Translations under genes and position numbers: made by a program | IMG/VR virus record: IMGVR_UViG_3300042525_000286 | Span: 1-30,599 of that record | DNA length: 30,599 nucleotides | From: a virus | Direction: 5' to 3' (one strand) | In this document: positions 14,340-21,867 of the stretch, piece by piece | Layout: every line of letters starts with the position of its first letter | Position numbering within the stretch: position 1 is the first letter of the stretch | The notes under the pieces: model-generated | Seen by the model: the letters and a program-made list of their open reading frames with translations, nothing else | The model's database searches: none | What the model was told of the DNA's origin: nothing

Positions 14340-14481
14340 AAGTATAGTAATGGTAGGTAAAAGATGTCCGAATGCTTACGAAATGCAAAAAGAAAATACT
14401 TCTAAAGCTAAAGAAGTTTTAGAACAAGTTAAACAAATGGAACATATTAAAAGTAAACCTATTAAATATTTATTAAAATGA
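14317..14481 (+). CDS. 54-aa basic protein
   Basis: The frame overlaps the upstream gene by 23 bases and the next by 4. The product is strongly basic and helical with one Cys (VGKRCPNAYEMQKENTSKAK). Function is unknown. Confidence 0.5.
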   Translation: MSKLSKRKSIVMVGKRCPNAYEMQKENTSKAKEVLEQVKQMEHIKSKPIKYLLK

Positions 14482-15877: not shown

Positions 15878-16381
15878 ATGAAACAAATTGCAACCGCCTT
15901 AATTAAGGCACAATCAGAAATGGCAGATGCTAAAAAAAATGCCAAAAATCCTTTCTTAAAAAATTCTTATGCGGACTTAAACGCAATTCGAGAAGCAGTT
16001 ATTCCTGTACTTAACGAAAACAAAATTGCAGTATTACAACCTATGGTTGAAATGAATGGCGAAATGTACATTAAAACGCTTTTATTACACGAATCAGGTG
16101 AAAGTATAGAGAGTGTTACAAAAGTGGTTATATCAAAGCCAAATGATGCTCAATCGCAAGGAAGTGGTATTACATACGCTAGAAGATACGGACTTCAAAG
16201 TTTATTAAATGTCGGAGCGGTTGATGATGATGGGCATAGTGCATCTGTTCAACCAACCAAACCAAATGCAACAACTGAAATTTTACTAAAGGCAAAGCAA
16301 GGTGGCTTTTCGTTGGAACAAATTAAATCTAAATATTTAGTTTCAAAAGAAATGGAAGATTACTTTAATTCTTTAAAATAA
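15878..16381 (+). CDS. ERF-family single-strand annealing protein
   Basis: The 167-aa protein has the ERF signature: KNPFLKNSYADLNAI (residues 23-37), NENKIAVLQPM, then GSGITYARRYGLQSLLNVGA and DDDGH. ERF proteins form rings on single-stranded DNA and promote annealing in phage recombination, comparable with Red beta. It lies beside an SSB-like gene and upstream of NinG, so a recombination and replication set is present. Only the core domain is present; the C-terminus is short. Confidence 0.85.
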   Translation: MKQIATALIKAQSEMADAKKNAKNPFLKNSYADLNAIREAVIPVLNENKIAVLQPMVEMNGEMYIKTLLLHESGESIESVTKVVISKPNDAQSQGSGITYARRYGLQSLLNVGAVDDDGHSASVQPTKPNATTEILLKAKQGGFSLEQIKSKYLVSKEMEDYFNSLK

Positions 16382-16383
16382 TT

Positions 16384-16394
16384 TTGTATATTTA
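16384..16394 (+). promoter_or_regulatory. Weak promoter -7 box TATATTTA
   Basis: TATATTTA at 16387-16394 matches TAnnTTTG at all but the last base. It sits 5 bases before the structured leader at 16400, the same arrangement as at 17840 and 21287. Confidence 0.4.
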
Positions 16395-16399
16395 CAATT

Positions 16400-16460
16400 C
16401 GCTACAATAAAGTTTAATTTAAAACCCTTTTTGTTTGTAGCGAGCATTAAGGGTTTTTTA
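16400..16460 (+). ncRNA. Structured leader 1: interleaved inverted repeats before HNH gene
   Basis: Arms appear in order A B A' B'. A is CGCTACA (16400-16406) and A' is TGTAGCG (16436-16442). B is AAAACCCTT (16421-16429) and B' is AAGGGTTTT (16449-16457), followed by more T. Both stems are perfect. Because they interleave, they can form an H-type pseudoknot, or the two can compete as antiterminator and terminator. The ATG at 16465 follows 4 bases after 16460. Loops are 14, 6 and 6 bases. Confidence 0.6.
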
Positions 16461-16464
16461 TATT

Positions 16465-16974
16465 ATGGAAGTATTTAAAACTATTAAAGGATTTGAAAAT
16501 TATGAAATTTCTAATTTAGGAAATGTAAAAAGTTTAAATTATAATAGAACTAAAAAAGAAAAATTATTAAAAAAATGTAATGATTCAGATGGTTATGAAG
16601 TAGTAATTTTATGTAATAAATTAGGTAAAAAAACATTAAAAGTACATAGATTAGTTGCTTTGCATTTTATAGATAATGAAGATAATAAAAAAGAAGTAAA
16701 TCATATTAATGGTATTAAAACCGATAATAGAATTGAAAATTTAGAATGGTGTACAGCATCTGAAAATCAAATACATGCATATAAAATAGGTTTACAAATT
16801 AATCCAAAAAGAAAATTAACATTACAACAAGTTGAATATATTAGACAAAATTGTAGAAAAAAATATTTAATAAATAATATTCCTGAAACTGTTATTTTTA
16901 GTCAAAAATATAATGTTTCAGTAAGTACTATTAATAAAATATTAAGAAATTATTCGTATAAAAAAACTGAATAA
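16465..16974 (+). CDS. HNH homing endonuclease with NUMOD4 domain
   Basis: The 169-aa protein has NUMOD4 (residues 3-45: KTIKGFENYEISNLGNVKS), an HNH domain (about 60-105: VHRLVALHFI, EVNHINGIKTDNRIENLEWC, HA) and a C-terminal HTH-like part (FSQKYNVSVSTINKILRN). It nicks or cuts DNA at a long target and promotes its own spread. It stands between ERF and the SSB-like gene. Its codons look even more AT-rich than its neighbours (many AAA, AAT, TTA, ATT), consistent with separate arrival. It has its own structured leader. Confidence 0.9.
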   Translation: MEVFKTIKGFENYEISNLGNVKSLNYNRTKKEKLLKKCNDSDGYEVVILCNKLGKKTLKVHRLVALHFIDNEDNKKEVNHINGIKTDNRIENLEWCTASENQIHAYKIGLQINPKRKLTLQQVEYIRQNCRKKYLINNIPETVIFSQKYNVSVSTINKILRNYSYKKTE

Positions 16975-17823: not shown

Positions 17824-17847
17824 TGTATTGTTTTTTTTGTATATTTG
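17816..17847 (+). promoter_or_regulatory. Promoter: TTG (17816) and TATATTTG (17840)
   Basis: TATATTTG at 17840-17847 is a full TAnnTTTG match. TTG at 17816-17818 gives a 21-base spacer; a second TTG lies at 17823. It follows the terminator directly and feeds the structured leader before the replication initiator gene. Confidence 0.7.
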
Positions 17848-17852
17848 TAAAA

Positions 17853-17945
17853 GTAATATTCGTGCAGGTTTATTACATTAAAAGAAATTTTTAAAAAGCT
17901 CGATAAAAGTAAGGACTGCACTCCTGAAATTATCGGGCATTTTTA
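17853..17945 (+). ncRNA. Structured leader 2: pseudoknot-like element before replication initiator gene
   Basis: A small hairpin GTAATA/TATTAC (17853-17858, 17871-17876) holds GTGCAG (17862-17867) in its loop. That loop complements CTGCAC (17916-17921). CTGCAC in turn lies inside the loop of a 9-pair stem, GCTCGATAA (17898-17906) with TTATCGGGC (17930-17938, one T-G wobble), followed by a T-rich tract. The order is again A B A' B', so a kissing loop or pseudoknot over a terminator-like stem can form. The ATG at 17951 follows. Confidence 0.6.
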
Positions 17946-17950
17946 TTTTT

Positions 17951-18625
17951 ATGAAACCAACAAAAAGAAAAGCATTTAATTTCTTAAGAAGTTATTTTGA
18001 TGTTTTAAATGAATTAAAAGATGACAAAGATAAACTTGATTTTTTAATTTCAATTATTAACAAACAATTTTTAAATGAAGACCCAAAAGATTTATCTTTT
18101 ATAGTAAAACTATGTTATGAAAGTCAAAGACATAGTGTTGAATCAAGTGTAAAAGGCTGGTTAAGGGTTAATAATACTGATATTTTAGGCAACATTGTAT
18201 TAGACCCTACGACTAACCCTACGACTAACCCTACGACTAACCCTATGATAGACCCCAAAGAAGAAGAAGAAGAAGAGAAAGAGAAAGTAGAAGTAAAAGA
18301 AGAAAATAATTTTTTTTTAGCTGAAATTATTGAATTTTCTTTTGATGATTTTTGGAGTTTATATCCAAACAAAACAAATAAGAAAAAAGCAGAAGAAAAA
18401 TTTAATAAGCTAACTAAAGAACAAAAACAAAAAATTGAACTTCATTTGCCTTTTTTTATAAACAACAAACCTTTTAAAGATTATAACCATCCACACGCTA
18501 TTACTTATTTAAACCAAGAGCGTTATAACGACGAAATACAAATAACAAATACTAACTTAATACCATCACAAAATGAACTTAACGACATCACAAGACAATT
18601 CAGACTTAACAACTCCAAACTCTAA
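17951..18625 (+). CDS. Replication initiator / replisome organizer-like protein
   Basis: The 224-aa protein has an N-terminal helical domain (residues 1-75: FNFLRSYFDVLNELKDDKDK, ESQRHSVESSVKGWL). A repeated linker (TTNP three times, residues 87-98) and a Glu/Lys tract follow. The C-terminal domain (about 130-195: FDDFWSLYPNKTNKKKAEEK, HPHAITYLNQERY) is typical of phage replisome organizers and helicase loaders. It likely marks the phage origin and recruits the helicase. The linker DNA contains 12-bp iterons, as lambda has its origin within gene O. It is preceded by a strong promoter and structured leader. Confidence 0.65.
   Translation: MKPTKRKAFNFLRSYFDVLNELKDDKDKLDFLISIINKQFLNEDPKDLSFIVKLCYESQRHSVESSVKGWLRVNNTDILGNIVLDPTTNPTTNPTTNPMIDPKEEEEEEKEKVEVKEENNFFLAEIIEFSFDDFWSLYPNKTNKKKAEEKFNKLTKEQKQKIELHLPFFINNKPFKDYNHPHAITYLNQERYNDEIQITNTNLIPSQNELNDITRQFRLNNSKL
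18205..18252 (+). repeat. 12-bp iterons within the replication gene; candidate origin
   Basis: CCCTACGACTAA occurs three times in a row (18205, 18217, 18229), with a fourth degenerate copy at 18241 (CCCTATGATAGA). A long purine-rich run and an AT-rich stretch ending in eight T follow at 18253-18318. Direct repeats followed by an asymmetric AT-rich region inside an initiator gene match the lambda origin plan. The repeats also encode TTNP, so a protein-level reason is possible. Confidence 0.55.
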
Positions 18626-21286: not shown

Positions 21287-21294
21287 TATATTTG
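21287..21294 (+). promoter_or_regulatory. Promoter -7 box TATATTTG before sigma-like gene
   Basis: TATATTTG is a full TAnnTTTG match, 5 bases before the structured leader. No clear -33 TTG at the usual spacing is visible. Confidence 0.6.
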
Positions 21295-21299
21295 TTAAA

Positions 21300-21368
21300 A
21301 ATAGCAACGTTCTTACAATGGCTTATATTTAAGATTGTTAATTCAGGTTTGGCTATTCCTGATTTATT
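21300..21368 (+). ncRNA. Structured leader 3 before the sigma-like gene
   Basis: AATAGC (21300-21305) complements GCTATT (21352-21357). GCTATT lies in the loop of TCAGG (21343-21347) with CCTGA (21358-21362), followed by a T-rich tract. Between them is a hairpin, ACAAT, GG bulge, CTTA, loop TATT, TAAG, ATTGT (21315-21338). Stems are shorter than in leaders 1 and 2, so this copy is less certain, but the order A B A' B' is the same. Confidence 0.45.
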
Positions 21369-21378
21369 TTAGAAAAAA

Positions 21379-21867
21379 ATGTTAGAGAAACTATTTCAAC
21401 ACCATAAACAACTAATCGAATATGCAAAGATATTTGATAAGTCTTACTGCGAGGATATAGTTTCAGAAGTATATTTAAAATTACATCAATATTCAAGCGA
21501 AGAAAAATGCTTTACAAATGGTAAACTAAACAAAGGTTATTTATTTATTGTAATTCGGTCTGTATATTTGTCCCAATTCTATAATAAATTTGGTACAGAA
21601 GAATTAATAGACACACCAATAGAAGATGACTTTGATGAGAATTACGAAATAGAATGGTATAAGTTCAGAACAAAATGCGAAGCCGAAGTAAACAGTTGGG
21701 ATATGTACGATAAAAAGCTATTCACAATTTATAGGGATAACGATATATCTATGCGTAAATTAGCAAAAGAAACTGGCATAAGTTTTGTAAGTATATTTCA
21801 TTCACTAAAAGCACATAAGAAAAAATTAAGAGAATTATTCCAAGAAGATTATAATAATTTAAAATAA
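21379..21867 (+). CDS. RNA polymerase sigma-like factor
   Basis: The 162-aa protein resembles small sigma-70 (ECF-like) factors. A region-2-like helix carries YCEDIVSEVYLKLHQY (residues 23-38). Region-4-like HTH is at 110-152 (DKKLFTIYRDNDISMRKLAK, then ETGISFVSIFHSLKAHKKKL). Between them is an acidic linker. It lies at the boundary between early genes and the terminase-led late genes, behind its own promoter and structured leader. It could direct host RNA polymerase to late promoters, possibly the TTGTTTTTAAATAAA sites. The ECF-like assignment is good; the target is inference. It could also be only an HTH regulator. Confidence 0.65.
   Translation: MLEKLFQHHKQLIEYAKIFDKSYCEDIVSEVYLKLHQYSSEEKCFTNGKLNKGYLFIVIRSVYLSQFYNKFGTEELIDTPIEDDFDENYEIEWYKFRTKCEAEVNSWDMYDKKLFTIYRDNDISMRKLAKETGISFVSIFHSLKAHKKKLRELFQEDYNNLK

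Follow-up and report, generated by a model that had tools for sequence, protein, structure and literature searches.

Kissing-loop leader RNAs before homing-endonuclease and replication genes in Bacteroidetes phages: candidate transcription attenuators

Two interleaved inverted repeats directly upstream of a homing-type endonuclease gene raise the question of what kind of RNA precedes this gene, how it folds, and whether it is its shape or its sequence that is kept. The repeats lie in a 30.6-kb IMG/VR virus record of a Bacteroidetes-type phage (30,599 nt, analysed over its whole length and here called the window), where they occupy the space between an Erf-like gene ending at 16381 and a NUMOD4-HNH_3 gene whose ATG is at 16465 (leader 1, Table 1). 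As read from the sequence, the arms follow one another in the order A B A′ B′, and are succeeded by a T run and the ATG. Both pairs are perfect over 9 bp: the B pair is as long as the preliminary description had it, while the 7-bp A pair given there proves to be the core of a longer one. Dinucleotide shuffles give an expectation of 0.007 per window for perfect interleaved arm pairs of at least 9 bp and of 0.06 for those of at least 8 bp, a length at which leader 1 is the sole case in the window, and the repeats before the HNH gene are thus real and non-random.

Table 1. Elements of the three leaders in the window (positions counted from its first nucleotide)
Feature	Coordinates	Strand	Basis
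Leader 1, −7 promoter box TATATTTA, Bacteroidetes type TAnnTTTG	16387..16394	+	Sequence; consensus and spacing PMC6847099; at the same place in relatives
Leader 1, arm A TCGCTACAA, at predicted RNA 5′ end (+1 = 16399)	16399..16407	+	Sequence
Leader 1, arm B AAAACCCTT, 5′ strand of terminator-like hairpin P3	16421..16429	+	Sequence
Leader 1, arm A′ TTGTAGCGA, within the P3 loop	16435..16443	+	Sequence
Leader 1, arm B′ AAGGGTTTT, 3′ strand of P3	16449..16457	+	Sequence
Leader 1, T run (six T) of putative intrinsic terminator	16454..16459	+	Sequence
NUMOD4-HNH_3 homing-type endonuclease, 169 aa	16465..16974	+	Pfam PF07463 8.9e-13, PF13392 1e-12
Leader 2, whole element, before replication-initiation-like gene (P0002) at 17951	17840..17950	+	Covariance model R1, E about 8e-4; relatives with compensated changes
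Leader 2, hairpin P1 GTAATA/TATTAC; loop includes GTGCAG (17862-17867)	17853..17876	+	Sequence
Leader 2, hairpin P3 GCTCGATAA/TTATCGGGC; upper stem AGGA/TCCT; internal loop AGTA/GAAA	17898..17938	+	Sequence and relatives
Leader 3 (probable): TATATTTG 21287-21294; AATAGC 21300-21305 / GCTATT 21352-21357, the latter inside TCAGG 21343-21347 / CCTGA 21358-21362	21287..21362	+	Sequence

In F. johnsoniae the last base of the −7 box lies at position −5 (PMC6847099), and by this spacing rule the predicted +1 of leader 1 falls, at 16399, on the initial base of arm A. The promoter and start point, taken from the consensus, would therefore place arm A at the very 5′ end of the RNA, as had been proposed, and the family described below agrees: in 86 of 97 leaders no more than 4 nt separate the first paired base from the predicted +1, and relatives have the same −7 box at the same place, a −33 box being not clearly conserved. 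Further downstream, a G+C-containing stem directly followed by a T run stands between the promoter and the gene, the form of an intrinsic terminator or attenuator. When folding is modelled during synthesis, an A–A′ hairpin (−10.9 kcal/mol) is predicted to form while B′ is still to be transcribed and to give way afterwards to P3 (−16 kcal/mol), and A–A′ is in this model a possible folding intermediate; the program handles no pseudoknots and is therefore silent on whether A–A′ persists beside P3. By analogy with the family, a joint, pseudoknot-like state of A–A′ and P3 would be the most likely one.

The same arm order, with unrelated arm sequences, occurs in other phages before replication-initiation-like genes (as at P0002), HNH genes and others. 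A first descriptor scan without a promoter filter was noisy (164 matches versus 121 in the control), and the noise was removed by a promoter filter and then by a pattern confined to the 5′ hairpin, P1. Scored on arm length, P3 and P1, the scan of 35 genomes or records yielded 47 matches at a score of at least 28, versus 0 in the control. The pattern TATATTTGYATNNGTAGAN{6,9}CTAC specifies only the promoter box and the 4-bp P1 stem and is blind to the pairing partner; matches were found on 79 viral contigs, and of their 61 distinct loops 58 have a perfect 7–8 nt reverse complement of their own loop within 100 nt downstream, as against 0.9% when leaders with different loops are crossed. Among 84,980 bacterial and archaeal species this pattern, which covers the one P1 type only, matched 3 contigs; these host-genome matches lack the remaining anatomy and, by position and sequence, look like chance, including the one that has a 7-nt match (L176). 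A second pattern with another P1 stem performed more weakly, with a complement of at least 7 nt in 16 of 64 distinct matches (cross-control about 2%), most of the remaining matches being unrelated sequence.

Cultured phages carry members as well, namely Flavobacterium phages hattifnatt9-1, tooticki6-1 and 11b and Tenacibaculum phage JQ, and BLAST with the hattifnatt leader retrieved 34 Moomin phage records at 99% or more. In LoVEphage-type Bacteroides prophages (L264, L280) a 7-nt loop pair, GTAGCAG/CTGCTAC, is found where the transcript opposite the repressor gene of the phage begins; this element, whose first annotated gene lies about 650 nt downstream, is a probable family member, and its prophage copies are nearly identical, so that they offer no covariation. 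Through its presence in the cultured Flavobacterium ‘Moomin’ phages, 11b and JQ, and probably in these prophages, the family is directly testable. Neither the window nor 13 related loci contain a match to an Rfam 15 covariance model that reaches the gathering score, and relaxed thresholds gave leader 1 only chance-level matches; no description of this RNA family was found in the open-access literature, of which coverage was incomplete. What emerges, from statistics that rest on partly related metagenomic contigs, is a large and apparently undescribed family of compact structured RNAs that covary strongly, occur in dozens of variants and are absent from Rfam.

Comparison of its members provides good support for an anatomy in which a 5′ arm, usually the loop of P1, would pair over 6–10 nt (usually 7–8) with the loop of P3; both loops consist of A plus 7 nt in the main type. 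Covariation in relatives, named in the preliminary description as one check on the pairing, was found in an alignment of 46 leaders selected on the promoter and P1 stem: the loop–loop helix is paired in 100% of cells, both-sided changes occur at 4 of its 7 pairs and are always compensated, and no pair is broken. The lower P3 stem is 92.8% paired, with compensated changes at 4 of 6 pairs, and the upper stem 93.4%, with such changes at 3 of 4; the covariation score of 0.460 compares with 0.128 after shuffling and with no more than 0.11 when the partners are slid. P1 is invariant among the aligned leaders because it served for their selection; between subfamilies it differs and pairing is kept (GTAG/CTAC, GTAATG/CATTAC, GTCG/CGAC, GTGA/TCAC), and the internal loop between the lower and upper stems of P3 is UGAU/UGAU, UU/UU or AGUA/GAAA (the last in leader 2, 11b and L063). 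A covariance model that encodes P1 and P3 and omits the loop–loop pairing scored leader 1 marginally in the window (E 0.37; its relative in L013, E 0.2), and a loop complement of at least 6 nt is present in every one of the 32 members that it recovered beyond the training type, among them leader 1, as against 13% of cross pairs, related ones included.

Arms thus vary between phages and between leaders of a single phage, and their partners still match, which upholds the earlier claim that structure rather than sequence is kept. The conserved state would be a loop–loop (kissing) contact with P1 and P3 both formed, since A lies in the P1 loop, A′ in the P3 loop, and the closing stems vary compensatorily. 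Two mutually exclusive hairpins, the other folding suggested at the outset, were ruled out as the main state of the family since both loop-presenting stems covary (P1 between subfamilies). Leader 1 has the −7 box, a start at the 5′ arm, complementarity of this arm to the loop of the 3′ hairpin, the T run and a nearby start codon; it lacks a convincing P1 that would present arm A in a loop, the only possibility being 4 bp of A/U. Its A helix is longer, at 9 bp, and two other P1-less members (L065, L147) have 8–9 nt. We regard leader 1 as a P1-less, H-type-like version of the family, so that the pseudoknot reading initially offered would probably hold here, most members making instead a kissing contact with both hairpins formed.

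Two more leaders in the window had been said to share the order. Leader 2 is clearly a member of the kissing-leader family, recovered independently by the covariance model, and its P3 loop CTGCAC (17916–17921) is complementary to the GTGCAG of its P1 loop. Leader 3 shows the same order, but its arms are shorter (6 and 5 bp), it has no T run, and the covariance model did not recover it; we retain it as a probable, divergent and weaker member on the strength of L086 and L087, where this order recurs with other arms. A stretch like ACGTTCTTACAATGGCTT is conserved in leader 3 (window 21306–21323) and in L086 and L087, and is unpaired in the proposed structure. In L071–L081, orthologues of the gene at 21379 (P0003) have a nearly leaderless promoter, ACATTTGTGTA-ATG, in place of leader 3, and a protein search found no P0003 homologues in cultured phages. 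In the P3 of the leader-2 subfamily (window 17898–17938; L093 about 33680–33720; L063) the AGTA/GAAA internal loop is conserved, with covarying flanking stems and loops, and judged by eye it resembles the loop E (sarcin–ricin) motif. The replication-initiation-like gene itself contains a perfect 12-bp tandem repeat, ACCCTACGACTA (window 18204–18245), which codes for a TNP repeat.

The suggestion that one of the hairpins is a terminator fits the family, in which 82 of 99 leaders have at their 3′ end a T run of at least 5, as against 17% before 658 other gene starts; in some subfamilies the run is weak or begins 2–3 nt past the stem. For the P3 hairpins the predicted energies have a median of −16.7 kcal/mol, and several elements adjoin the terminator of the upstream gene directly. 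P3 is separated from a start codon by 8–23 nt in about nine tenths of the 99 leaders, a listing that required an ORF within 70 nt and thus favours gene-proximal leaders. The genes behind them (named partly by eye) include 20 HNH genes and 12 replication-initiation-like genes, along with genes for large proteins of primase/helicase size, helicases, GIY-YIG proteins and small proteins. Expression from the leader promoter would need read-through of P3, since a gene only 8–23 nt away leaves no room for another promoter, and a terminator-like hairpin between a promoter and a very near gene implies attenuation, provided that P3 terminates.

We consider it probable, if by no means assured, that the leader RNA is a promoter-proximal transcription attenuator with a loop–loop-tethered terminator. 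The RNA would begin at the foot of the 5′ arm or hairpin, and the arm would pair by 6–10 bp with the loop of P3, which has the terminator form of a stem and then a T run. This contact between 5′ end and loop (mostly a kissing complex, but in leader 1 a longer pairing that involves no P1) would preorganise the terminator, and might fix the share of polymerases that continue past it, or allow a factor to alter this share; the contact sequence would be free, complementarity and geometry being kept. Pairs, anatomy and T run are established here by comparison of sequences; termination and read-through are putative, and so is the sense of the contact's effect. The probable LoVEphage-type prophage member, which starts a transcript running away from the repressor, is a point for attenuation. 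Points against it are the weak or displaced T run of some subfamilies, that no family-wide conserved ligand core or competing antiterminator was found, and that about a tenth of the leaders have no gene within 25 nt (e.g. L116, L120, L125, L161); these last fit a free-standing small RNA as well.

Such a small-RNA gene would produce a stable RNA of about 60–115 nt, sealed by the contact between its 5′ and 3′ loops and acting in trans, with the next gene expressed by leak. The complete promoter–RNA–terminator anatomy speaks for it, as do the members that lack a nearby gene and the distance of the first annotated gene in the probable prophage member. We nevertheless think this unlikely, given the closely spaced ORF behind most leaders (in a listing that selected for one), arm sequences that are not conserved, so that no common target pairing is visible, and a comparison of phages in which orthologous genes occur both with and without the leader. 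The short, fixed spacing to the start codon would also suit an element of translation or mRNA stability with a compact 5′ fold that would adjust ribosome access or shield the transcript, the T run being no more than part of a U-rich untranslated region; in Flavobacterium, initiation is tuned by secondary structure close to the start codon (PMC6847099), and T4 homing-endonuclease genes are restrained by RNA structure (PMC3014915). The strong enrichment of T runs argues against this, and the start codon of leader 1 is unpaired in the predicted fold, a prediction on which we also rejected, for leader 1, a hairpin sequestering the ribosome binding site as in homing-endonuclease genes; we rate a role in translation or stability as quite improbable. 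Type III toxin–antitoxin RNA (ToxI-like) was rejected as well, there being no tandem array at the site and the gene being a NUMOD4-HNH rather than a ToxN-type toxin, and so were riboswitches with interleaved helices (preQ1, fluoride, SAM-II), which are marked by a conserved ligand-binding core, whereas here there is no Rfam match and both arms and internal loops vary between subfamilies.

The genes behind the leaders appear to be exchangeable. L013, the only close relative of leader 1 found, has an Erf protein 96% identical to that of the window and a leader 1 counterpart 97.5% identical, placed before a different HNH gene; the two endonucleases share 44% identity, limited to the first 84 residues. 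Both strands of the L013 B stem (AAAACCCTCT/AGAGGGTTTT) are changed relative to the window and pairing is kept. L018 has neither leader nor HNH gene at the corresponding place, and the two comparisons together indicate that the leader stays while the following gene is swapped, or that both are absent. L116, L120, L125 and L161 have one GTCGTCG leader, after which (about 80–190 nt) the DNA is completely different and begins TATAACG...; in two of them, L125 and L161, a long, imperfect inverted repeat (TATAACG...GGCTGG...GTTATAA) stands at its start and is like an integron attC site. From these sequences it looks as if gene cassettes were inserted behind the GTCGTCG leader. In L039, L043, L091 (about 14420–14480), L249 and L282, a small conserved hairpin (e.g. 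AGTTATCGGTAATCTTTAAACCG) follows a leader of the GTGAGACG type, in the 45–50 nt between T run and gene.

A broader reading, which we offer tentatively and hold to be doubtful, is that of shape-coded control: Bacteroidetes phages might mark replication, recombination and homing genes with a sequence-independent kissing-loop/terminator shape, read as one regulon by a phage or host factor or by RNA polymerase, with genes exchangeable behind a constant leader (the swapped HNH genes, the integron-like cassettes). The divergence of arms could be read in yet another way, as a self/non-self or copy-number device in which a foreign free leader RNA pairs in trans with the P1 or P3 loops, so that coexisting arms diverge, as with plasmid antisense RNAs. 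Indeed, arms are shared by leaders of one genome in 0 of 37 pairs, and no contig has two matches to the P1 pattern; but shuffling gives 1.9 shared pairs and zero sharing in 14% of trials (P about 0.14), which is not significant, and leaders at different loci are different lineages anyway. Arm orthogonality within genomes is thus suggestive only, and such a device seems to us highly improbable.

If the attenuator reading is true, these leaders would contain a terminator controlled by loop–loop contact with the RNA's own 5′ end, and would show how phages restrain homing endonucleases and replication genes; the free contact sequence could make them a natural set of orthogonal RNA parts. Loop–loop pairing of about 7 bp is familiar from the ColE1-type RNA I/RNA II and from the C4-type antisense immunity RNAs of P4 and P1, where it joins separate RNAs or acts in trans; in P4, early transcription is controlled by termination. 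The length of the pairing is alike and the phage leaders differ in having both loops in one short RNA, and no Rfam match links them to ColE1 or C4-type RNAs. In phage T4 I-TevI and Aeromonas phage Aeh1 mobE, RNA structures restrain homing-endonuclease genes by sequestering the ribosome binding site (reviewed in PMC3014915), and the present leaders are similarly structured RNA just 5′ of a free-standing endonuclease gene whose expression they would be expected to restrict; they differ in a start codon predicted to be free, in the T run after the hairpin and in the many other genes served. The T4 gene 32 mRNA has a 5′ H-type pseudoknot, without a terminator, that is bound by gp32 for translational repression (PMC3014915); a pseudoknot-type structure in the 5′ region of a phage mRNA is shared with the leaders described here, whereas these have free arm sequence, serve many genes and mostly take the kissing form. 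With intrinsic-terminator attenuators, finally, the family shares a terminator-type hairpin and T run between the promoter and the gene served; it differs in that neither a common leader peptide nor a common ligand core or antiterminator was found, and in that the terminator loop would be tethered to a 5′ hairpin by a 6–10 bp loop–loop contact.
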